Positions 33,292 to 47,863 of a stretch of 64,000 bases of DNA are shown here, piece by piece. The translations under genes and the position numbers were made by a program. This DNA is from Bacteroidia bacterium (GTDB lineage: Bacteria; Bacteroidota; Bacteroidia; Flavobacteriales; Flavobacteriaceae), in NCBI GenBank assembly GCA_030432635.1, contig JAUIMB010000007.1, positions 62,001 to 126,000 on the forward strand, in the 5' to 3' direction. Numbering within the stretch: the first letter of the stretch is position 1; each line of letters opens with the position of its first letter. A model generated the notes under the pieces. It was not told where the DNA came from, made no database searches, and saw only the letters and a program-made list of their open reading frames with translations.

Positions 33292-33390
33292 TGGGCGTTA
33301 CCCTCTTTCACTTAACGTTAAAGAGGGTCAGGCTATTCGCTGTATCTTTTTGTGAACAACAAAAAGGATGTCGCTACTATCCTTAACGCA
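33292..33390 (+). repeat. Structured intergenic repeat, copy A
   Basis: It begins TGGGCGTTACC, has hairpin 1 (CTCTTT...AAAGAG), then GGTCAGGCTATTCGCT, hairpin 2 (TCTTTTTGT...ACAAAAAGGA) and ends ATCCTTAACGCA. The outer GCGTTA/TAACGC can pair. The ends and the GGTCAGGCT linker match copy B at 17227-17360 while hairpin sequences differ. It lies between convergent genes, like copy B. Confidence 0.75.
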
Positions 33391-33474
33391 TAAAGGGAAT
33401 TTTACGAAAAGTGTCATTCTGATTCTGAATATAATGCACCTTCAGCCGACTGCAAGCGAATCATTTATTAGCTG

Positions 33475-34731
33475 TTACATAATGTCAAATGCCTTTCTGA
33501 CCTTATCAACGTGATCTAGTTTTTCCCAAGTGAATAGTTCTACATCGACCTTAATATCATCACCATAAGGTTGTGAAAAGGTCTTGCTTACAGTTTCAGA
33601 TTCTCGTCCCATATGTCCATAAGCAGCAGTTTCACTATACATCGGTTGACGCAACTTTAAACGTTCTTCAATCGCAGCTGGTCGCATATCAAAGATATTG
33701 GCAATTTTTTCAGCAATTTCACCATCGGTTAAATTAAACGGACAAGTACCATAAGTATCCACAAAGATAGACGTTGGCTCGACAACGCCAATGGCATAGC
33801 TCACCTGTACCAGGATTTCGTCACAAACACCTGCCGCAACCATATTCTTCGCAATATGTCGTGTGGCATAAGCGGCACTACGATCAACCTTGCTTGGGTC
33901 TTTTCCAGAAAAAGCACCACCACCATGAGCACCTTTTCCACCATAGGTGTCAACAATGATCTTACGACCCGTTAATCCTGTGTCGCCATGAGGTCCACCA
34001 ATCACAAACTTCCCAGTTGGATTGATATGATAGGTGATGTCATCATTAAATAATACTTGGATATGCTCAGGTAATTTGGCAACAACCCTTGGGATTAAAA
34101 TCTCAACAATGTCCTTTCTGATTTTTGCTAGCATCTCGTCATCAGATCCAAAATCGTCATGCTGAGTTGAGACGACAATGGCATCAATGCGCTGCGGAAC
34201 ATTATCATCGCTATATTCAATAGTCACCTGACTTTTAGAGTCTGGTCGCAAATAGGTAATGTCTTTGTTTTCACGTCTTAGATCAGCCAATTCCTTTAAG
34301 ATTCTATGCGATAGATCTAATGCTAAAGGCATGTAATTTTCAGTTTCACGTGTGGCATAACCAAACATCATTCCTTGGTCTCCTGCACCTTGTTCGTCTT
34401 TGCTTGCTCGATCAACACCACGATTGATGTCTTCAGATTGTTCATGAATGGCAGAAAACACACCACAAGAATTACCATCAAACATATATTCGCTCTTAGT
34501 ATAACCAATTTTGTTGATCGTATCACGTGCAATCTTTTGAACATCTAAATAGGTGTTCGATTTAACTTCACCAGCCAAAACGACTTGGCCAGTGGTGACT
34601 AAGGTTTCACATGCAACCTTAGATTCTTTGTCAAAGGCCAAAAAATTATCGATTAAGGCGTCGCTAATCTGATCTGCGACCTTGTCTGGATGGCCTTCGG
34701 AAACGCTTTCAGAAGTAAATAAATAAGCCAT
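33475..34731 (-). CDS. metK: S-adenosylmethionine synthetase
   Basis: Makes SAM from methionine and ATP. All family signatures are present: [55 protein letters not shown] and [19 protein letters not shown] (start GGGAFSGKD). The 418-residue length is normal for Bacteroidota. Its leader of about 220 nt carries a SAM-II-like riboswitch, which would repress metK when SAM is abundant. It is divergent from the metH operon. Confidence 0.97.
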
Positions 34732-34852
34732 GTATTTTATGGGTTATAATTAATAATAGTTTGAAATCATTCTCCATAACAGAAAACGAAAGGCATTTAT
34801 GACCAAGGAAAATAAAGGATGAATTGCGACGTGCTTAAGGAGTAATAGGATT

Positions 34853-34950
34853 ACTGCTTTAGCATTTAATTCCCAACATAATTTGGAATCACTTAAAGTT
34901 AATCCCAAGGTTGGAAGAGGTTGCAATCAGCTCAAATCTTTCCTCTATAA
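34853..34950 (-). ncRNA. SAM-II-like riboswitch in the metK leader
   Basis: On the minus strand AGAGG (34946-34942) and CCTCT (34920-34916) close a stem whose loop reads AAAGATTTGAGCTGATTGCA. A linker hairpin follows (TTCCAAC with GTTGGGA), then AAATGCTAAAGCAG (34867-34854). The loop GATTTGA...TGATTGCAA and the downstream AATGCTAAAGC are the two halves of the SAM-II pseudoknot as I remember the family. The linker is longer than in the minimal SAM-II and holds an extra hairpin. The aptamer starts right after the predicted transcription start. Confidence 0.78.
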
Positions 34951-34959
34951 ATGAAAGTG

Positions 34960-35108: not shown

Positions 35109-35138
35109 TAACAACAAAGTTCAAAAACTTACTGAAAT

Positions 35139-35260
35139 GTTATCAAGAAAGGCTGAGGGACTAGACCCAATGAAGCCTTAGCAACCTCCCAAAATTTTGG
35201 GGAAGGTGCTAAATTCTACCAATTGCTTTGATTCATCAATCAAGCAACAGGATAGATAAC
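35139..35260 (+). ncRNA. SAM-I (S-box) riboswitch of the metH operon
   Basis: Classic S-box sequence: GTTATC (35139-35144) pairs with GATAAC (35255-35260) as P1. In between are AAGAAAGGCTGAGGGACTAG, CCCAATGAAGCCTTAGCAACC with one base variation from consensus, and AAGGTGCTAAATTCTACC. The 128 nt from P1 to the metH start hold two hairpins (35319-35333 and 35343-35374) but no U-tract terminator, so control may be at translation initiation. Together with the metK riboswitch it accounts for most of the 657-bp gene-free stretch 34732-35388. Confidence 0.95.
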
Positions 35261-35388
35261 CAAAACGTCATTGCCCATCTGCAATCACGTATTTTCTTAT
35301 AACATATTTCTATTAAAAACGCTTTAAAAGCGTCATGATAACAATCCTGTTTTTGGTATGCAATATTCAGGATTTAAAAACGTGAAAT

Positions 35389-36390
35389 ATGAGTACAATA
35401 CTTAACGAAATTCAACAACGTATTTTAGTGTTGGATGGTGCCATGGGTACCATGTTGCAACGCTATAATTTTTCTGAAGAAGACTTTAGAGGTGAGCGTT
35501 TTAAGAATTACCCAACTCCACTAAAAGGCAATAACGATTTGTTGTCCATAACGCAACCAGAGGCGATAGCTGAAGTACATAGAAAGTATTTTGATGCTGG
35601 TGCCGATATTGTGGAAACCAATACGTTTTCTGGTACGACTATCGCAATGGCAGATTACCAAATGGAAGATTTGGTATATGAGCTCAATTACGAATCGGCT
35701 AAAATTGCCAAAAAAGTTGCCGATGAGTTTACTAAAGCAAATCCTGAAAAGCCTCGCTTTGTTGCTGGAAGTATCGGTCCAACCAATAAAACAGCAAGTA
35801 TGTCTCCAGATGTCAATAAACCTGATTACAGAGCCATTACTTTTGAAGAACTAAGGGTTGCCTATAAGGAGCAGGTTGAAGCACTTATCGATGGTGGTGT
35901 AGATGTACTATTGGTAGAAACCATATTTGATACACTTAACGCTAAAGCGGCTTTGTTTGCCATTGAGGAAGTAAAGGAAGAACGAGGTGTCAATATACCG
36001 ATTATGGTATCTGGAACAATTACAGATGCCTCTGGTCGCACCTTGTCTGGCCAAACTGTTGAGGCTTTTTTGACATCAGTTTCCCATGTGCCTTTGTTGA
36101 GTGTTGGTTTTAATTGTGCTTTAGGAGCAAAGCAGTTGCAACCTTATTTACAGCGCTTATCAAACAGAACTAGTTTTTATACATCGGCTCATCCCAATGC
36201 TGGACTGCCTAATGCTTTTGGAGAGTACGATCAATCGCCTGAGGAAATGCAGGTTTTAATAGAAGCTTATTTAAAGGATGGTCTGATTAATGTCATTGGC
36301 GGATGCTGCGGTACGACTCCAGGCCACATTAGGGCTATTGCAGAAGTTGCAAAAAATTATAAACCCAGAAGAGTAGTTGTAGGTGTATAA
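35389..36390 (+). CDS. metH: Methionine synthase, homocysteine-binding (zinc) module
   Basis: The N-terminal module of cobalamin-dependent methionine synthase as a separate 333-residue protein. It carries VLDGAMGTMLQRYNFSEEDF, VETNTFSGTTIAMADY, the zinc ligand Cys in VGFNCALGAKQL and the Cys pair in IGGCCGTTPGHIRAIAE. It binds and activates homocysteine for methylation from the B12 module encoded downstream. It is the first gene after the SAM-I riboswitch. Splitting MetH here is common in Bacteroidota. Confidence 0.93.
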   Translation: MSTILNEIQQRILVLDGAMGTMLQRYNFSEEDFRGERFKNYPTPLKGNNDLLSITQPEAIAEVHRKYFDAGADIVETNTFSGTTIAMADYQMEDLVYELNYESAKIAKKVADEFTKANPEKPRFVAGSIGPTNKTASMSPDVNKPDYRAITFEELRVAYKEQVEALIDGGVDVLLVETIFDTLNAKAALFAIEEVKEERGVNIPIMVSGTITDASGRTLSGQTVEAFLTSVSHVPLLSVGFNCALGAKQLQPYLQRLSNRTSFYTSAHPNAGLPNAFGEYDQSPEEMQVLIEAYLKDGLINVIGGCCGTTPGHIRAIAEVAKNYKPRRVVVGV

Positions 36391-36423: not shown

Positions 36424-36720
36424 ATGAAGAATTATAAAGAGTTGGATGTTTGGATGGCGTCAAGAAAGTTTGTCAAGGCCTTTTATGGCTTAATGTTGAG
36501 CTTTCTTAACAGGGACAGATACAGTTTGATTAGTCCAATTAATAGAAACGTTATTTCTTTGCCTTCTGAGATTTTAGAAGGAATTGGAAGACCATCAGAT
36601 AAGGATACTGTCCAATTTACGGATATTGCAAAAGATTACCTAGATATAGTTCTTAAAGAAAATATATCGCACCAAAAATCATTAAACGGATTCATTAATT
36701 ATTTCAAAAACAAAAAATAA
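36424..36720 (+). CDS. Four-helix-bundle protein (S23/IVS-like family), short
   Basis: A 98-residue helical protein. [20 protein letters not shown] resembles the FxxLxVWxxAxxL start of the four-helix-bundle family first seen in 23S rRNA intervening sequences, and [17 protein letters not shown] resembles its IPxNIAEGxGR motif. It is shorter than the usual 115-125 residues. Its stop overlaps the next gene's ATG by one base, so it is translated within the metH operon, separating the two MetH halves. Role unknown. Confidence 0.75.
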
Positions 36721-39482
36721 TGATGAGCTCAGCACAACCCAAATATCTAAAACTTTCGGGTCTCGAACCTTTAGTGGTTACACCTGAAAGTAATTTTATC
36801 AATGTAGGTGAGCGTACTAATGTTACAGGTTCTCGTAAATTTTTACGCTTGATAAAGGAAGAAAACTATGAAGAAGCGCTAGATGTCGCTCGAGACCAAG
36901 TAGAAGGTGGAGCACAGATATTGGACGTCAATATGGATGAAGGTATGCTTGACGGGAAAAAAGCTATGGTCAAGTTCTTAAACCTAATTGCTTCTGAGCC
37001 TGATATTGCTCGCATTCCTATTATGATAGACAGCTCTAAATGGGAGATCATTGAAGCTGGCTTGCAGGTCGTACAAGGAAAATGTGTGGTAAACTCCATT
37101 AGCCTTAAAGAAGGTGAAGACGAATTTGTTCGCCAAGCGAAATTAGTAAAACGTTATGGAGCAGCAGTCATTGTCATGGCTTTTGATGAGATTGGTCAGG
37201 CAGACACCTACGAAAGACGTATTGAAATCTGTGAGCGTTCCTATAACATCTTGGTTGATATTGTCAAATTTCCTCCAGAAGACATCATTTTTGATCCCAA
37301 TATTTTCCCTGTTGCCACAGGAATGGAAGAACATCGATTGAATGCCCTCGATTTCTTTAATGCCACAAAATGGATTCGTGAAAACCTCCCTTTTGCCAAT
37401 GTTTCAGGAGGTGTAAGCAACGTGTCGTTTTCTTTCCGTGGAAACAACGTAGTACGAGAAGCTATCAATTCAGCATTCTTGTACCATGCCATACAACACG
37501 GAATGAACTTAGGGATTGTAAATCCGACTTTATTGGAAGTTTATGATGAGATTCCAAAAGAGTTGTTGCAGCATGTTGAAGACGTACTCTTTGATAGGCA
37601 TGATGATGCAACTGAGAATTTATTGGCATTTGCCGAAACATTGAAAGGACAGAAAAAAGAGTCGGTCTCAAAAGTTCTTGAATGGCGAAATGACCCTTTG
37701 CAGGATCGAATTACCCATGCTTTGGTCAAGGGTATCGATGAATTTATCATTGAAGACGTAGAGGAAGCACGTTCGACCTCCAAAAAACCTATAGACGTTA
37801 TAGAAGGACATTTAATGACTGGAATGAATGTCGTTGGTGATCTCTTCGGAAGCGGAAAAATGTTCTTGCCTCAAGTTGTCAAGTCTGCTCGTGTGATGAA
37901 AAAGGCCGTAGCTTATCTTCAGCCGTTTATTGAGGCCGAAAAAGATGGTGCTGTCGAATCTGCAGGTAAGATACTAATGGCAACAGTAAAGGGTGATGTT
38001 CATGATATTGGTAAAAATATTGTAAGTGTAGTTCTAGGTTGCAACAATTACGAAATTATAGACCTAGGAGTAATGGTGCCACCGGAAACAATCATCGAAA
38101 AAGCAATTAGCGAAAAGGTTGATATTATTGGGCTTAGCGGATTGATTACCCCTTCACTGGATGAAATGGTTTACCTTTCAAAAGCGATGAAAAAGGAAAA
38201 CCTATCCATTCCTTTAATTATTGGAGGAGCGACAACTTCAAAGGCGCATACCTCTGTGAAGATTGCTCCCAATTACAACCATACGGTTGTTCATATCAAT
38301 GATGCATCTCGTGCTGTGACGGTTGTTGGAAATTTGCTTAAAGCGGATAATCAAGTTTATAAAACGCAAATTCGTGAAGAGTATGATAAGTTCCGTGAGC
38401 AGTTTTTAAAACGCGGAAAACGTAAGGAGTACATTACAATTGATGAAGCACGTAAAAATAAATTTCAAATTCATTGGAATGCTTCGGAAATTGTAAAGCC
38501 AAAAGAATTAGGCATTCAGGTTATCGAGGATTTCGATATAGTTGATTTGGAAGGTTATATCGATTGGACACCGTTTTTTAGAAGTTGGGATTTGCATGGT
38601 AAATTTCCTGAAATCCTTGGCGATGAAGTCGTTGGAAAGCAAGCACAAGATCTTTATGATGATGCGCAACATCTATTGAATGAAGTGTTTAAGAAAAAAC
38701 TTCTGACAGCCAAGGCTGTTTTTGGTTTGTTTCCTGCCAATACAGTGAATGATGATGATATTGAGCTCTCGACTGCGCTCGAACAGACAAATGAACTGTC
38801 ACCTCGAGCATTACCGAGTTCAAAATATATTTTGAACGAAGATAGCTTACGTAGTAAGTCGAGAGGTCTCACAAGATTCCTAACCCTTCGTCAACAACTA
38901 AAAAAACGTGAAGGTGTGCCAAACTTTGCATTGGCTGATTTTATAGCGCCAAAGGAATCTGGTATTCAAGATTATATTGGTGCCTTTTGTGTCACAACAG
39001 GTTTTGGGACTCAGGAATTAGCAGCACAATATGAAGCTGATAACGATGATTATAATTCCATAATGATTAAAGCACTGGCCGATCGTTTGGCCGAAGCTTT
39101 CGCCGAGTACTTACACAAGGAAGTGCGAACAAAACATTGGTGTTATGCTAAAGATGAAGCGTTGAGCAATGATGAACTTATCAAGGAAAGTTATAAAGGT
39201 ATTCGACCAGCTCCAGGTTATCCAGCCTGTCCCGACCATCTCGAAAAGAAAACCATTTGGGAACTATTGCAAGTAGAAGAAACGATTGGTGTTAAACTTA
39301 CTGAAAGTTTAGCCATGTGGCCAGCATCAAGTGTTAGTGGATATTATTTTGCCAACCCAGAAGCTAGATATTTTGGTTTGGGTAAAATCACAGAAGATCA
39401 AGTGGAAGATTATGCAAAACGTCGACAAATAAGTTTGGAAGCGTCTAAAAAATGGCTAAATCCAAATCTGGCTGAGACTTAA
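36720..39482 (+). CDS. metH: Methionine synthase, folate-, cobalamin- and SAM-binding modules
   Basis: The rest of MetH, 920 residues. The pterin-binding module is about 20-290 ([37 protein letters not shown]). The cobalamin module is about 330-560, with the DxHxxG ligand motif in [20 protein letters not shown]. The reactivation module is about 590-910 ([20 protein letters not shown]). It transfers methyl from methyl-THF through cobalamin to homocysteine bound by the separate N-terminal protein. Two ATGs are adjacent at 36720 and 36723; either may be used. Confidence 0.95.
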
Positions 39483-42647: not shown

Positions 42648-43541
42648 TCACGAAGTCAATTCGTGAAATAGACTCTCGAGACTCGCATTTTTTTGATTGA
42701 GCTGAAGAATTTTTAGTTCGTTGTCATGGGCAAAATCAAAAACGTGGGAGCGCATATCTTCAGACGTGGAAAATGTAATTTCATACACAAATTCATGTAC
42801 ATTTTTTACCGATTTTGCATTAGGAAGTTTAAGTAAAAAAGCATCTTCAATACGATAATCAAACTCAACTATAATCGTTTGTTCCTTGTCATCACGAAGT
42901 TCCTGGAGTTTTTTGTCGGCAACAATTTGCCCTTTGTTGATAATGATGACACGATCACAAATGGCTTCAACCTCTTGCATGATGTGAGTTGACAAAAAGA
43001 CGGTTTTGTCGCTTCCAATGGTTTTGATCAAATGTCTAATATCAATCAATTGGTTTGGGTCTAATCCTGTTGTGGGCTCATCCAATATCAAAACAGAAGG
43101 ATCATGCAACAAGGCATTGGCCAATCCAACGCGTTGCCTATAACCTTTTGAAAGTTGACCAATGGTCTTATGTGCTTCGGGTGTTAATCCTGTGAGTTCA
43201 ATGATATCTTGGATTCGTGATTTTGATACCTTGTAGATGCCCGCGTTAAAGGCTAGATATTCCTTGACATACATTTCCAAATACAAGGGATTGTGTTCGG
43301 GTAAATATCCTACACTTCTTTGAACGTTTTTTTTGTCAAGACTTACATCAAAACCATTAACAATGGCAGTACCTTCAGAAGCATCGATATAAGTGGTCAA
43401 AATCTTCATGAGTGTTGACTTTCCTGCGCCATTAGGACCTAAAAAACCAACGATCTCACCTTTTTTTACAGAAAAGGAAACCTCATCAAGTGCCTTTTGT
43501 TTATCGTAATATTTTGAAATACCATCAACCTCTATAGACAT
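42648..43541 (-). CDS. gldA: Gliding motility ABC transporter ATP-binding protein GldA
   Basis: An ABC ATPase of 297 residues with Walker A (GFLGPNGAGKSTLMKIL), signature (IGQLSKGYRQRVGLANALLH), Walker B (SVLILDEPTTGLDPNQLIDI) and the switch His (STHIMQEVEAICDRV). The beginning (MSIEVDGISKYYDKQKALDE) and the C-terminal NELKILQLNQKNASLESLF match GldA, which works with GldF and GldG and is associated with gliding. GldFG are not adjacent, as is usual. A TACTTTTG -7 box lies at 43566-43559. Confidence 0.88.
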   Translation of the reverse strand: MSIEVDGISKYYDKQKALDEVSFSVKKGEIVGFLGPNGAGKSTLMKILTTYIDASEGTAIVNGFDVSLDKKNVQRSVGYLPEHNPLYLEMYVKEYLAFNAGIYKVSKSRIQDIIELTGLTPEAHKTIGQLSKGYRQRVGLANALLHDPSVLILDEPTTGLDPNQLIDIRHLIKTIGSDKTVFLSTHIMQEVEAICDRVIIINKGQIVADKKLQELRDDKEQTIIVEFDYRIEDAFLLKLPNAKSVKNVHEFVYEITFSTSEDMRSHVFDFAHDNELKILQLNQKNASLESLFHELTS

Positions 43542-43558
43542 GTGAAACAGTGTTTGTT

Positions 43559-43566
43559 CAAAAGTA
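43559..43566 (-). promoter_or_regulatory. Promoter -7 box of gldA
   Basis: On the minus strand TACTTTTG, 17 bp before the gldA ATG. Confidence 0.55.
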
Positions 43567-43646
43567 ATAATTATAACTTTTGATGCACATTTATATTGGG
43601 AATACTTTAAATTTCTTCCAAAAGATTAAAAATAGCACTTAACAAT

Positions 43647-43676
43647 TTTGATTTCTTGAAATAATACCTACATTAG
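43647..43676 (+). promoter_or_regulatory. Candidate promoter of the aromatic operon
   Basis: TTTG (43647-43650), an 18-bp spacer and TACATTAG (43669-43676), one base off TAnnTTTG. Transcription would begin near 43683, a few bases before the leader-peptide ATG. Confidence 0.5.
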
Positions 43677-43690
43677 CAATTCAATAAAAA

Positions 43691-43768
43691 ATGATGAATA
43701 GTCGTAATTACACATATTATTGGTTTTATTTCTTTTTTACAAAGAAGAAAGAGGCATTGTATGTATAA
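43691..43768 (+). CDS. Aromatic-rich leader peptide of the pheA operon
   Basis: A 25-codon ORF beginning MMNSRN, then YTYYWFYFFF, then TKKKEALYV and a TAA stop. Nine of the ten residues at positions 7-16 are Tyr, Trp or Phe. It is followed 24 nt later by an intrinsic terminator and then by genes for Phe and Tyr synthesis. This is the architecture of a ribosome-mediated attenuator: stalling on scarce aromatic aminoacyl-tRNAs would prevent terminator formation. A second ATG immediately follows the first. Confidence 0.85.
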   Translation: MMNSRNYTYYWFYFFFTKKKEALYV

Positions 43769-43791
43769 TTGTATGACCAAAAATATACTAT

Positions 43792-43822
43792 AAGTCTCGA
43801 TGAAAATCGGGACTTTTTTTTG
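43792..43822 (+). terminator. Attenuator terminator upstream of pheA
   Basis: AAGTCTCGAT (43792-43801), a GAAA loop, and ATCGGGACTT (43806-43815) form a 10-bp stem with one G-U pair, followed by a run of Ts to 43822. It lies between the leader peptide and pheA. I could not draw a convincing antiterminator by eye. Confidence 0.88.
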
Positions 43823-43866
43823 CTGAACCATTCTAATAAAAAGAATTGTTTAGTCTGATAAAATAA

Positions 43867-44703
43867 GTGAATAGTTTGATTTCAAAAGTAGCCATCCAAG
43901 GAGTAAAAGGATCATTTCACCATATTGTGTCACAACAATGTTTTGATGAAAATGTAACGGTCATTGAATGCCTAACGTTTGACAAGGCCATAGAATGTTT
44001 ATTGACAAATCAATGTGATGCTGCCATTATTGCTATAGAAAATTCCATAGCTGGTTCCATCATCCCAAATTATGCCTTAATCGATAACCATAATTTGTCT
44101 ATTGTTGGAGAATATTACTTAGATATACAGCATCATTTGATGGCTTTACCGAATCAAGACATCTCAGATATCAAGGAAGTGTATTCGCATCCAATGGCAT
44201 TATTACAATGTAAGGAGTTCTTTAAAAAACAGCCACATATCAAACTTATTGAGGATAAAGATACTGCGGAAGTTGCACAGCGCATCCAACAAAATCAATC
44301 GAAACAAGTTGCAGCGATCGCTTCGAGATTGGCCTCAGAACTTTTTGACCTTGAGATTATTTCTGAAAGCATTCAAACGATAAAACATAATGAAACACGA
44401 TTTGTTATCGTGAAGACCCAAAATTCAGAAGCCATAAACGAAAAGGGCAACAAGGCCTCAGTTAAATTTGAACTCGACCACAAACGCGGAAGTCTGGCAA
44501 GTCTATTGAACGTTCTCAGTGATTGTCAACTTAACCTAACCAAAATTCAATCGTTGCCTAAGATTGAAACACCATGGAAGTATGCGTTTTTTGTAGATTT
44601 GACTTTTGAGGCGTATTCTGACTTTGAAAAAGCAAAGTCCATTATGGCAATAATGGCACAAGAATTTAAAGTATTGGGTGAATATAAAAATGCAAGACAA
44701 TGA
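43867..44703 (+). CDS. pheA: Prephenate dehydratase
   Basis: Converts prephenate to phenylpyruvate for Phe synthesis. The catalytic domain (1-185) contains VAIQGVKGSFHHIVSQQCFD, AIIAIENSIAGSIIPNYALI and the catalytic Thr-Arg-Phe in HNETRFVIV. The C-terminal ACT domain (about 195-278) has RGSLASLLNVLSDCQLNLTK but IQSLP where the Phe-binding ESRP motif is expected, so allosteric control may differ. The start is GTG at 43867; no ATG suits better. Its stop overlaps the aminotransferase start by 4 bp. Confidence 0.93.
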   Translation: MNSLISKVAIQGVKGSFHHIVSQQCFDENVTVIECLTFDKAIECLLTNQCDAAIIAIENSIAGSIIPNYALIDNHNLSIVGEYYLDIQHHLMALPNQDISDIKEVYSHPMALLQCKEFFKKQPHIKLIEDKDTAEVAQRIQQNQSKQVAAIASRLASELFDLEIISESIQTIKHNETRFVIVKTQNSEAINEKGNKASVKFELDHKRGSLASLLNVLSDCQLNLTKIQSLPKIETPWKYAFFVDLTFEAYSDFEKAKSIMAIMAQEFKVLGEYKNARQ

Positions 44704-45845
44704 TAGATATTGCAAACCGACTAAAACATGTTGAGGAATACTATTTCTCAAGGAAATTGCGCGAAGTAAGGTGGCTTCAGTCCGAAGGGAAGGACATCAT
44801 TAACTTGGGTATTGGTAGCCCAGATTTGAATCCACCAGAACGTGTGCTCAACGCACTTGTTGAAACCTTCAATGAAGAAGGTGCACATAAGTATCAAAGC
44901 TACCAAGGAATCCCTGAATTACGTGTGGCTATTGCCAATTTTTATCGAGAAAAATTTAGGGTGTCATTAGATGCGATGACCGAAGTCTTGCCCTTAATGG
45001 GAAGCAAGGAAGGAATTTTACACATTTCGATGGCGTTTCTAAATGAAGGTGACGAAGTACTAATTCCTAATCCAGGCTACCCAACCTATGCTTCGGTTAC
45101 AAACTTGGTTGGAGCCAAACCTGTGTATTACGATTTAAATGAAGACGGTAATTGGCTACCAGATTTAGTGAAGCTTGAACGACAAGGAATGCAGAATGTT
45201 AAATTGATGTGGGTAAATTATCCGCACATGCCTACAGGAGCCATTGGGACGAACAAGCTTTTTGAGGATCTTATCACTTTCGCAAAGCGCAACGATATCT
45301 TGATTGTAAATGACAATCCCTACAGTTTTATTTTGAACCGTTTCCCTAGGAGTATCCTAAAATACAAAGGTGCAAAAGAGGTCTGTCTTGAGTTGAATTC
45401 TCTTAGTAAAACCTTTAATATGGCTGGTTGGCGTGTTGGAATGCTATTAGGGAAAAGTGATCATCTCAATGCCGTTTTACGTGTAAAAAGCAATATGGAT
45501 TCTGGAATGTTTTTAGGGATTCAAAAAGGTGCCGTCGAAGCTTTAAACTGTTCCGATATTTGGTACATGTCCTTAGCAAGTGTTTATGAACAGCGTAGGG
45601 AAATCGCATGGAAACTAGCAGAAGCTTTAAACTGTACTTACAATAAAGCTGCCTCTGGTTTATTTGTTTGGGCAAAACTACCTAAGAATACCAATTCTGA
45701 AAAGTTTGTCGATTTGCTGCTGCACGAAAAATCTATTTTTATTGCACCTGGTTCGATTTTTGGCACCAATGGTAATGGTTATATAAGAATCTCTTTGTGC
45801 GCAACGGAACACGATTTGGAAGAGGCACTGAAAAGGGTAACCTAA
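44700..45845 (+). CDS. PLP-dependent aminotransferase, class I/II
   Basis: A fold-type I aminotransferase, 381 residues. It has the substrate-binding GIGSPDLNPPERVLNAL, YQSYQGIPELRVAIANFY, the PLP-contacting NYPHMPTGAIG and VNDNPYSFI, and the Schiff-base Lys in ELNSLSKTFNMAGWRVGM. Given its place between pheA and tyrA it probably transaminates phenylpyruvate and 4-hydroxyphenylpyruvate, or prephenate, as the last step to Phe and Tyr; aspartate or DAP-type activity cannot be excluded from sequence. Confidence 0.88.
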   Translation: MIDIANRLKHVEEYYFSRKLREVRWLQSEGKDIINLGIGSPDLNPPERVLNALVETFNEEGAHKYQSYQGIPELRVAIANFYREKFRVSLDAMTEVLPLMGSKEGILHISMAFLNEGDEVLIPNPGYPTYASVTNLVGAKPVYYDLNEDGNWLPDLVKLERQGMQNVKLMWVNYPHMPTGAIGTNKLFEDLITFAKRNDILIVNDNPYSFILNRFPRSILKYKGAKEVCLELNSLSKTFNMAGWRVGMLLGKSDHLNAVLRVKSNMDSGMFLGIQKGAVEALNCSDIWYMSLASVYEQRREIAWKLAEALNCTYNKAASGLFVWAKLPKNTNSEKFVDLLLHEKSIFIAPGSIFGTNGNGYIRISLCATEHDLEEALKRVT

Positions 45846-45875: not shown

Positions 45876-46727
45876 ATGAAAAACATTTACATTATAGGCG
45901 TGGGATTGATTGGTGGGAGTTTGGCATTGGATATAAAGTCCAATAATCCTGAAGCCAAAATCTCTGGCATTGATTCAAATGAGGCACATTTGGATGAGGC
46001 TTTAAGTCTTCAAATTATTGACCTCAAGGCAGACTATGACGATTTGAATACAGCAGATTTGGTAGTGCTAGCTGTTCCTGTGGATAAGGCCATAGCGATT
46101 CTACCAAAAGTGTTGGATCTCGTTTCCGACCATACTTTGGTCATTGATGTAGGTTCAACGAAACTGCCAATTTGTAAAGCTGTCGCACAGCATGATAAAC
46201 GACGTAATTTTTTGGCGACACACCCTATAGCTGGCACAGAGTTTTCTGGCCCAAAAGCGGCTGTTCACGGTTTGTTTCAGAAAAAAACAAACATCATTTG
46301 CGAGGTAGAGCAAACCACTTTTAAGTTACAGGAAAAGGCCTTGCAATTGTTTTCAAACTTAGGAATGCGCATTCGCTATATGAATCCCAAAGCCCATGAC
46401 AAACACATAGCTTATGTGTCGCATTTGTCACATATCAGTTCGTTTATGCTAGGGAAAACGGTTATTGAGAAGGAGAAGAACGAACGCGATATTTTTGATA
46501 TGGCTGGCAGTGGTTTTGAAAGTACGGTACGTTTGGCAAAAAGCTCTCCTGCTATGTGGACACCAATTTTTGAACAGAATAAAGCGAACGTCATCGAAAC
46601 ATTGGATGAATATATTAATAATCTCAAACAATTTAAGGCGTTTATGGAAGCTGATGATTTTTCGGAAATCTATTCCGAAATGAAAAACACCAACCATATC
46701 AAGGATATATTAAACGGAATCAACTAA
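45876..46727 (+). CDS. tyrA: Prephenate dehydrogenase
   Basis: Oxidative decarboxylation of prephenate to 4-hydroxyphenylpyruvate for Tyr synthesis. The Rossmann motif GVGLIGGSLALDIKS is at the N-terminus. VIDVGSTKLPICKAV, FLATHPIAGTEFSGPKAAV and AYVSHLSHISSFMLG (catalytic His) are typical. Length 283 with no fused mutase, which instead is fused to the next gene product. Third gene of the aromatic operon. Confidence 0.93.
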   Translation: MKNIYIIGVGLIGGSLALDIKSNNPEAKISGIDSNEAHLDEALSLQIIDLKADYDDLNTADLVVLAVPVDKAIAILPKVLDLVSDHTLVIDVGSTKLPICKAVAQHDKRRNFLATHPIAGTEFSGPKAAVHGLFQKKTNIICEVEQTTFKLQEKALQLFSNLGMRIRYMNPKAHDKHIAYVSHLSHISSFMLGKTVIEKEKNERDIFDMAGSGFESTVRLAKSSPAMWTPIFEQNKANVIETLDEYINNLKQFKAFMEADDFSEIYSEMKNTNHIKDILNGIN

Positions 46728-46780: not shown

Positions 46781-47863
46781 ATGGAAAACAAAAAAGAATT
46801 AAGACAGTGGTTAGATGCATTCGGGCTTGAGCATCCTCTAGTGATTGCTGGACCATGTAGTGCAGAAACTGAAGAACAAGTATTAAACATCGCGCACCAA
46901 TTAAAGGATAGCGATACGACAGTATTGAGAGCAGGTATATGGAAGCCTAGAACGCGACCTGGGAATTTCGAAGGTGTTGGAGCTCTAGGACTCAAATGGC
47001 TGCAAAAGGCAAAAGCAGAAACAGGATTGCTCACAACAACTGAGGTGGCCAATGCCAATCATGTAGATTTGGCATTGAAGCATGATATTGATATCCTATG
47101 GATTGGCGCACGTACCACGGTAAGCCCGTTTATTGTTCAAGATATCGCAGATGCGCTAAAAGGAACAGATAAAACGGTGTTAATCAAAAATCCAGTTAAT
47201 CCAGACTTGTCATTGTGGTTAGGAGCTGTGGAACGTTTTTATTCTGCTGATGTCAAAAAACTAGGTGTAATCCACAGAGGATTTTCAACCTATGAAAAGA
47301 CACGTTATAGAAACAATCCCGAATGGCAAATTGCAGTCGATTTACAAAATCGTTTTCCAGATTTACCGCTTATCTTGGATCCATCGCACATCGCTGGTCG
47401 TCGGGATATTATTTTTGATTTGTGTCAAACTGCTTTAGATCTCAATTATGACGGATTGATGATCGAAACACATCATGATCCAGACAACGCATGGAGTGAT
47501 GCAGCCCAACAAATTACACCTGAAACCTTAAAACAGTTTACCGTTGATCTTAAAATCAGAAAGGAGACCGATAACGAAGCCGATTTTAAAAATGCACTTA
47601 ACACCTTGCGAACAAAGATAGATGTCATTGACCATCAATTAATCGAAATGTTAGGGAAGCGTATGGTTGTTGCCGATCGAATAGGTGAACTTAAAAAATC
47701 AAGAAATGTGGCTGTACTTCAAACCAAACGGTGGAATGAGATATTAGGAAAGATGATTTTGCAAGGCGAAGAAAAGAACTTAAGCGAAGAGTTTATATTA
47801 AGGGTCTTTAAGGCCATACATCAAGAATCGATAAATCATCAAGAGAAGATCATCAATGGGTAA
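46781..47863 (+). CDS. DAHP synthase fused to chorismate mutase
   Basis: Bifunctional: residues 1-260 form DAHP synthase (PEP plus erythrose-4-P, first shikimate step) with VIAGPCSAETEEQVLNIA, AGIWKPRTRPGNFEG, LWIGARTTVSPF, VLIKNPVNPDLSLWLGA and LDPSHIAGRR. Residues about 270-355 form an AroQ-type chorismate mutase (LRTKIDVIDHQLIEMLGKRM, VADRIGELKK). The fusion lets the entry enzyme and the branch-point mutase interact, and the mutase domain often serves as a feedback sensor. Fourth gene of the aromatic operon. Confidence 0.95.
   Translation: MENKKELRQWLDAFGLEHPLVIAGPCSAETEEQVLNIAHQLKDSDTTVLRAGIWKPRTRPGNFEGVGALGLKWLQKAKAETGLLTTTEVANANHVDLALKHDIDILWIGARTTVSPFIVQDIADALKGTDKTVLIKNPVNPDLSLWLGAVERFYSADVKKLGVIHRGFSTYEKTRYRNNPEWQIAVDLQNRFPDLPLILDPSHIAGRRDIIFDLCQTALDLNYDGLMIETHHDPDNAWSDAAQQITPETLKQFTVDLKIRKETDNEADFKNALNTLRTKIDVIDHQLIEMLGKRMVVADRIGELKKSRNVAVLQTKRWNEILGKMILQGEEKNLSEEFILRVFKAIHQESINHQEKIING

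Follow-up and report, generated by a model that had tools for sequence, protein, structure and literature searches.

The pheA upstream region and its operon

A leader open reading frame (ORF) rich in aromatic codons, a predicted antiterminator and a predicted intrinsic terminator precede pheA on the plus strand of the window, which is the whole 64,000-nucleotide stretch of Bacteroidia bacterium DNA that was analyzed (Table 1). The genes downstream of the leader are those named in the initial annotation, pheA, an aminotransferase gene, tyrA and a gene for DAHP synthase/chorismate mutase, and this agrees with the NCBIfam matches. The chorismate mutase models of NCBIfam matched approximately residues 268 to 359 of the last product, all below their cut-offs. 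The aminotransferase is probably specific for aromatic substrates, judging from the operon context. The operon products act in the biosynthesis of the amino acids encoded in the leader run. The genes rsgA and dtd come after the DAHP synthase/chorismate mutase gene, and gldA is located divergently upstream of the leader. The gene order pheA-aat-tyrA-aroG/CM was present in 76 of the 80 named loci of the Flavobacteriaceae.

Elsewhere in the window, a SAM-II riboswitch (34849-34951, minus strand) is located in front of metK (33475-34731, minus strand) and a SAM-I riboswitch (35137-35262, plus strand) in front of metH, a methionine synthase gene that is split in two (35389-36390 and 36720-39482, plus strand). 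The two riboswitches belong to different classes and stand back to back. A Flavo-1 RNA (RF01705, 55.8 bits) is positioned at 33322-33395 on the minus strand, between metK and the next gene.

Table 1. Positions in the window of the leader elements and of the genes of the operon
Feature	Position	Strand	Basis and remarks
Candidate Bacteroidota-type promoter	43647-43676	+	9 of 10 positions match TTTG-N-TAnnTTTG
Leader ORF	43691-43768	+	25 codons, MMNSRNYTYYWFYFFFTKKKEALYV, stop TAA 43766-43768; ORF list; aromatic leader ORF in 141 of 141 usable family relatives
Control codons YTYYWFYFFF	43709-43738	+	9 of 10 aromatic; segment 1 inside, 43723-43737
Possible protector hairpin 1:2	43723-43755	+	43723-43737 with 43742-43755; minimum free energy fold of the full leader; hides GAGGC
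Antiterminator 5' arm (segment 2)	43751-43767	+	GAGGC-A-TTGTA-T-GTATA; fold of 43746-43803; covariation
Antiterminator 3' arm (segment 3)	43784-43798	+	TATACTATAAGTCTC; 43792-43798 common to the terminator
Intrinsic terminator	43792-43821	+	Stem 43792-43815, T tract 43814-43821; fold; covariation of 7 of 8 pairs in relatives
pheA, prephenate dehydratase	43867-44703	+	NCBIfam PRK11898, 1.3e-60, slightly under cut-off; PF00800 over cut-off
Class I/II aminotransferase	44700-45845	+	Best NCBIfam match PRK09276, below cut-off
tyrA, prephenate dehydrogenase	45876-46727	+	NCBIfam PRK08507, 7.4e-119, over cut-off
DAHP synthase with C-terminal chorismate mutase domain	46781-47863	+	NCBIfam PRK12595, 1.3e-58, below cut-off

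The extent of the leader ORF, its run of nine aromatic codons in ten and its stop codon had been annotated before and were exact to the base. A second in-frame ATG is located at 43694, and the leader, starting from either of these two ATGs, is the sole ORF of 8 to 60 codons with at least 7 aromatic codons in 10 on both strands of the window. When the intergenic region 43542-43866 (325 nt) was subjected to 5,000 dinucleotide shuffles, 9 of 10 aromatic codons were reached in none, 8 in 4, 7 in 15 and 6 in 142 of them. The DNA is AT-rich, and the relatives are therefore a stronger test of the leader than the shuffles.

The predicted terminator (43790-43823) folded with −13.0 kcal/mol (z −5.33), and none of 200 shuffles was equally good. 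A simple terminator scan of 43000-44200 found one terminator compared to 0.8 expected and is by itself not convincing. The initial annotation had assigned 43792-43822 to the terminator; the stem at 43792-43815 followed by a T tract stood, and 43816-43822 turned out to be T tract and flank instead of stem. The mutually exclusive hairpin that had been missed by this first reading was found by folding of 43746-43803 (−11.9 kcal/mol, z −2.55, 3 of 200 shuffles equally good), and it covaries in the relatives. Its 5' arm is composed of the last leader codons and extends into the stop codon. It captures AAGTCTC, which are 7 of the 10 bases of the terminator 5' arm, so that antiterminator and terminator exclude each other. 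The whole leader, 43683-43823, folded with −31.9 kcal/mol (z −3.89).

Conservation and covariation in the Flavobacteriaceae

A PheA search yielded 110 loci, 30 of them in whole genomes of the family including that of the window and 80 on named contigs. Removal of 7 exact duplicates left 103 distinct upstream regions, and two contig ends without a leader region (L021 and L043) were left out, resulting in 101 usable close relatives. These were scored for at least 6 aromatic codons in 10 with an intrinsic terminator behind. Another 40 more divergent family members with 60 to 70% PheA identity were picked before their upstream DNA was viewed. The sample represents genomes with a PheA match (31 of 299 family genomes were without one), with the least similar matches left out.

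Aromatic leader, terminator and antiterminator were present in 101 of 101 close relatives and in 40 of 40 more divergent members, counts that ignore shared ancestry. A retention of the terminator together with a loss of the aromatic run, which would have counted against the initial annotation, did not occur, and both were kept in all 141 usable family regions. At least 5 pairs joined the region after the run to the terminator 5' arm in each of the 141 when folded. The terminator 5' arm contained GTCTCG in 98 of 101 close relatives and in 17 of the 40 divergent members; most of the other divergent members had a GTCCCG-like form. Typical family leaders are TYYNWFYFFFSKRNETLYV, starting with ATG in 140 cases and with GTG in one. 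On the forward strand of the 141 upstream regions (400 nt), 8 of 10 aromatic codons were reached in 114, 7 in 135 and 6 in 139 regions, compared to 0, 1 and 9 regions on the reverse strand. The start codon and the conservation of the codons suggest that the leader ORF is translated. In L008, L034, L035 and L036, three of which are Gelidibacter, the attenuator is positioned 156 to 519 nt before pheA; this distance is 5 to 117 nt for the remaining 137 leaders of the family.

A covariance model of the element, R1, was built on the close relatives and used with strict filters in a genome search. Exactly one match per genome was found in 114 of 199 family genomes, and the best 20 of the 114 matches, when compared by eye with the PheA positions, were all just upstream of pheA. 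No R1 match was obtained in 85 of the 199 genomes, including some with a directly seen leader such as G001 and G050. A second R1 match in the genome of the window (L245, E value 0.16) was rejected; it looks like a mere terminator of similar sequence. The model is available for the annotation of pheA attenuators.

Both helices covaried. In 45 representatives, the antiterminator core was paired in 97.8% of 270 cells and the terminator in 96.1% of 358 cells, and 4 of the 6 antiterminator pairs and 7 of the 8 terminator pairs had changes on either side. Neither value was reached in any of 500 shuffles, and slid versions paired in at most 45% (antiterminator) and 55% (terminator) of the cells. The antiterminator value was obtained with an alignment (A3) of sequences that had been trimmed to a constant distance from the run, a realignment made after the result of the previous one (A2) was known; A2 had given 72.6% of paired cells because the CGAGAC and CGGGAC type arms fell one column apart. 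The terminator 5' arm thus changes together with two partners, CGAGAC-GTCTCG-CGAGAC in one group and CGGGAC-GTCCCG-CGGGAC in another, with GAGGC/GCCTC and CAGGAC/GTCCTG as rarer forms. The pair formed by the switching base (segment 2) and its segment 3 partner was A-T in 112, G-C in 21, G-T in 4 and A-C in 2 of the 139 leaders counted, two of the 141 being not anchorable. Both bases changed in step (Fisher p 7e-19, a value that ignores shared ancestry).

A swap control was weak. A different partner arm still scored at least 10 in 39% of the draws compared to 71% for the own partner, because G-U pairs tolerate the change of the arm. With L141 left out, 23 of 140 own pairs scored below 10, partly because the anchor was shifted by two bases. 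In 38 leaders labelled non-standard, many of which were merely shifted, the standard arm GTCTCG fitted as well as the own arm (mean 10.2 compared to 9.7).

The choice of codons speaks for the protector hairpin. Compared to permuted synonymous codons, the actual placement in the run lowered the folding energy in 123 of 141 leaders, with a mean gain of 1.4 kcal/mol for the run plus the following 19 nt. The third codon from the run end was TTC in 91 of 101 leaders and the next two were TTT in 97 and 94, respectively. Covariation of the protector helix was not found beyond shuffles (72.7% compared to 71.5% paired). The hairpin is uncertain and belongs, together with the weight of Trp, to the least certain parts of the model.

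Upstream of the leader start at 43691, no Shine-Dalgarno-like sequence was visible by eye. The candidate promoter consists of TTTG (43647-43650), 18 nt and TACATTAG (43669-43676), and the pattern TTTG-N-TAnnTTTG is presumably the Bacteroidota-type promoter consensus. Of the 141 family leaders, 105 had a score of 9 or 10 out of 10 for this pattern, compared to 12 of 141 shuffled ones. In 123 of 141 cases, a TAnnTT(A/T)G box ended at a distance of 10 to 24 nt from the leader start, a count made without a control; the box was absent from the 60 nt before the start in 9 of 141. A Bacteroidota-type promoter at this site is probable, and the promoter-like pair and the position of the box place the leader start probably within about 20 nt of the transcript 5' end.

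Ribosome geometry and the proposed switch

In 86 of 101 close relatives, the last aromatic codon was followed at 11 nt by the start of the antiterminator arm; in the 35 Bacteroidia from outside the family, this distance was 6 to 17 nt. Counted from the first base in the P site, the front edge of a ribosome is located about 15 to 16 nt ahead. If the last aromatic codon occupied the A site, this edge would be at about +10 and would not quite reach the arm, and one codon further the ribosome would begin to cover it. The alternative helix that excludes the terminator has thus an arm within reach of a stalled ribosome. The leader stop codon ended 6 to 36 nt after the run in the family. Judged by the stop-codon range, the arm would be masked during termination at the leader stop codon in 131 of the 141 family leaders and in 24 of the 35 others. 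This range was set after the stop positions of the family had been viewed and without a shuffled control, so that only the 24 of 35 outside the family have value as a test. Since 10 of 141 leaders in the family and 11 of 35 outside it ended at positions not within the range, masking by a ribosome at the stop codon cannot be the sole means to hide the arm.

These data bear on the question of whether the aromatic ORF may be a by-product of U-rich DNA, with a terminator that is constitutive or outside any switch. AT-rich DNA readily encodes F and Y, and the shuffles that reached 6 of 10 aromatic codons illustrate this. Nevertheless, no shuffle came to 9 of 10, no reverse strand of the 141 regions came to 8, two mutually exclusive helices covary and the spacing from run to arm is fixed, all of which makes a by-product extremely unlikely.

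Phe and Tyr codons occurred in 141 of 141 family leaders. In 112 of them, the final 12 codons of the run included a Trp codon, which was missing in the other 29. At one position of the run, 101 leaders had TGG in 77, TTT or TTC in 14 and TAT or TAC in 4 cases, so the interchange of F, Y and W keeps the aromatic identity and not the RNA sequence. A combined sensor for Phe, Tyr and Trp had been proposed; Phe and Tyr hold throughout the family, and the codon counts suggest that the Trp part is likely but optional. Sensing of Trp would be reasonable, given that the whole pathway begins with the DAHP synthase encoded in the operon.

This interchange also bears on a second explanation, a peptide-dependent arrest of the SecM or TnaC type, in which the nascent FYFFF-SKRNETLYV would stall the ribosome, perhaps with a ligand, and the switch would read this stall. 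Indeed, a SKRNETLYV-like peptide behind the run looks conserved in many relatives. However, 15 of 141 leaders stop one codon after the run and nevertheless keep the antiterminator RNA, which indicates that the post-run part is conserved as RNA. With F, Y and W being exchanged within the run, and with mainly the aromatic content being kept outside the family, an arrest of this kind is improbable to a high degree.

A structured, conserved leader with a terminator would also be expected for a metabolite riboswitch, a T-box or a protein-bound leader before pheA, with the ORF being incidental. No Rfam family reached its cut-off at the site, and the best matches at loose thresholds were weak. Between ORF and terminator, there is space for no more than the antiterminator arms and a variable loop, and the aromatic ORF was never missing in the 141 family regions. 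A leader of this type has hardly any probability left.

The region 43691-43822 is thus very probably a ribosome-mediated attenuator that senses charged tRNA-Phe and tRNA-Tyr, usually also tRNA-Trp, and controls the pheA-aminotransferase-tyrA-DAHP synthase/chorismate mutase operon. This had been the reading of the initial annotation, and it gained support from the leader and terminator kept in 141 of 141 regions and from the antiterminator that was found and covaries. With ample aromatic amino acids, the leading ribosome would pass the control codons and cover the antiterminator 5' arm; the terminator stem would then form and transcription would stop before pheA. During a shortage, the ribosome would stall in the run with its front edge just before 43751, the antiterminator would form between 43751-43767 and 43784-43798 and prevent the terminator, and the operon would be transcribed. 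If the leader is not translated, the control codons may act as a protector by pairing with the antiterminator arm, and the terminator would win again. In many flavobacteria, the Phe/Tyr operon is likely to be regulated through this attenuator.

Other leaders were seen in the genome of the window. A His leader, MTFIQLHHHFHTCTQAR, with a terminator and an alternative antiterminator is located before hisG (L220, contig C12), and a WWW leader, LNSYLNTTWWWMSRNETIVN, with a TTG start and a terminator before trpE (L222, contig C13); a quick fold of the latter gave no antiterminator. These two indicate that leader-type control may be general in this genome. No match to dihydroxy-acid dehydratase (PF00920, ilvD) was found in this genome (G000), which is rated 99.92% complete, and a branched-chain amino acid auxotrophy is possible.

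Range in the Bacteroidia and relation to known systems

A search of 247 genomes of the class Bacteroidia gave 72 with a PheA match, including that of the window. With G328 and G416 (contig edge, partial match) left out, the survey covered 69 of the 71 other places. Eight members of the own family were part of this survey, and L153 and L155 repeat L132 and L146. An aromatic leader was present in 46 of the 69 places, in 45 together with a terminator not more than 80 nt from the stop codon and in 43 also with at least 5 antiterminator pairs. Without the own family, these numbers were 38, 37 and 35 of 61, and the aromatic leader was absent in 23 of the 61. The reverse strands of the 69 places gave 4 leaders, no terminator and no antiterminator. 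Twenty further regions were chosen for family diversity from 128 genomes with a match, 19 from other classes of the phylum and one from another family of the order. One of the 20 passed the filter, L240, and was judged spurious (GTG start, stop 132 nt after the run).

It is somewhat more probable than the contrary that much of the class Bacteroidia shares one ancestral aromatic attenuator, with no evident Shine-Dalgarno site, a start near the 5' end, an arm that follows the last control codon at roughly one ribosome edge (near 11 nt), and control codons that also serve as protector strand. How closely the ribosome follows RNA polymerase differs between model bacteria. If the ancestral attenuator exists, the fact that it has persisted would imply a first ribosome close behind RNA polymerase in Bacteroidota. 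Deeply conserved, and seen as one model match per genome wherever the model matches, the leader is a natural reporter in Bacteroidia of whether ribosomes stay close to RNA polymerase.

Leader-peptide attenuation, a textbook mechanism, has been described mostly in Proteobacteria, and Vitreschak et al. (2004) reportedly name attenuators of Bacteroidetes/Chlorobi. The initial annotation had considered it far less described in Bacteroidota, and the field is not empty: according to the accessible text of Guerin et al. (2021), structured 5' regions that other Flavobacteriaceae share precede pheA and hisG of Flavobacterium psychrophilum, the pheA element is conserved in other genera with no Rfam match, and there are strong clues to leader-peptide attenuation before amino acid biosynthesis operons (PMC9723704). 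This kind of attenuation is already known, and attention had been drawn to a conserved structured element at pheA in the accessible part of this work (PMC9723704). That element concerns the same gene and family as the leader in the window, a likeness by description, and the accessible text on it states no aromatic leader, codons, antiterminator or range beyond the family (PMC9723704). Naville and Gautheret (2010) knew, in the part available, of ermC as the sole leader-peptide system shown in bacteria other than Proteobacteria and Actinobacteria (PMC2965389). The accessible text of a 2020 map of Bacteroides thetaiotaomicron mentions small ORFs reminiscent of leader peptides (PMC7366714), and that of a 2019 survey of five other bacterial genomes lists candidate upstream ORFs that contain F and Y codons and precede shikimate genes (PMC6429828); these ORFs resemble the leader in the window, by description, in being Phe/Tyr-rich and located before aromatic pathway genes. 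The available parts of PMC4833913, PMC8305728 and PMC7819879 contain nothing direct on an attenuator at pheA. A detailed description of the pheA attenuator was not found in the literature covered, which included few subscription journals and no supplements, and the antiterminator, the codon-to-arm spacing and the Bacteroidia-wide range were not found in its accessible part.

Among known RNA families, Rfam Phe_leader (RF01859) aligned over its full model at 43697-43821 on the same strand. With 24.5 bits (E value 0.051) compared to a gathering cut-off of 55, the leader in the window is not a member. Bacteroid-trp (RF01692), presumably a Trp leader, was not among the three Rfam matches in the window. 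The accessible text of Weinberg et al. (2010) lists it as a cis-regulatory candidate of Bacteroidetes (PMC2864571), a feature shared with the leader in the window, and it is named for tryptophan.

The closest comparison is with the attenuators of pheA (pheL), trp and his in enterobacteria. The sequence relation to these was judged via Rfam only. They have codons for the end product in a leader ORF, antiterminator and terminator helices that exclude each other, and possibly a protector. The leader in the window likewise has end-product codons, exclusive helices and a possible protector formed by the control codons. In contrast to the enterobacterial systems, it belongs to a different phylum, mixes Phe, Tyr and Trp codons and has no evident Shine-Dalgarno site, and its operon also makes Tyr and starts the whole pathway. 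The attenuator is mechanistically ordinary and well supported; it is of interest for how deep it goes in the Bacteroidia, for its clean geometry and because it can serve to test coupling.
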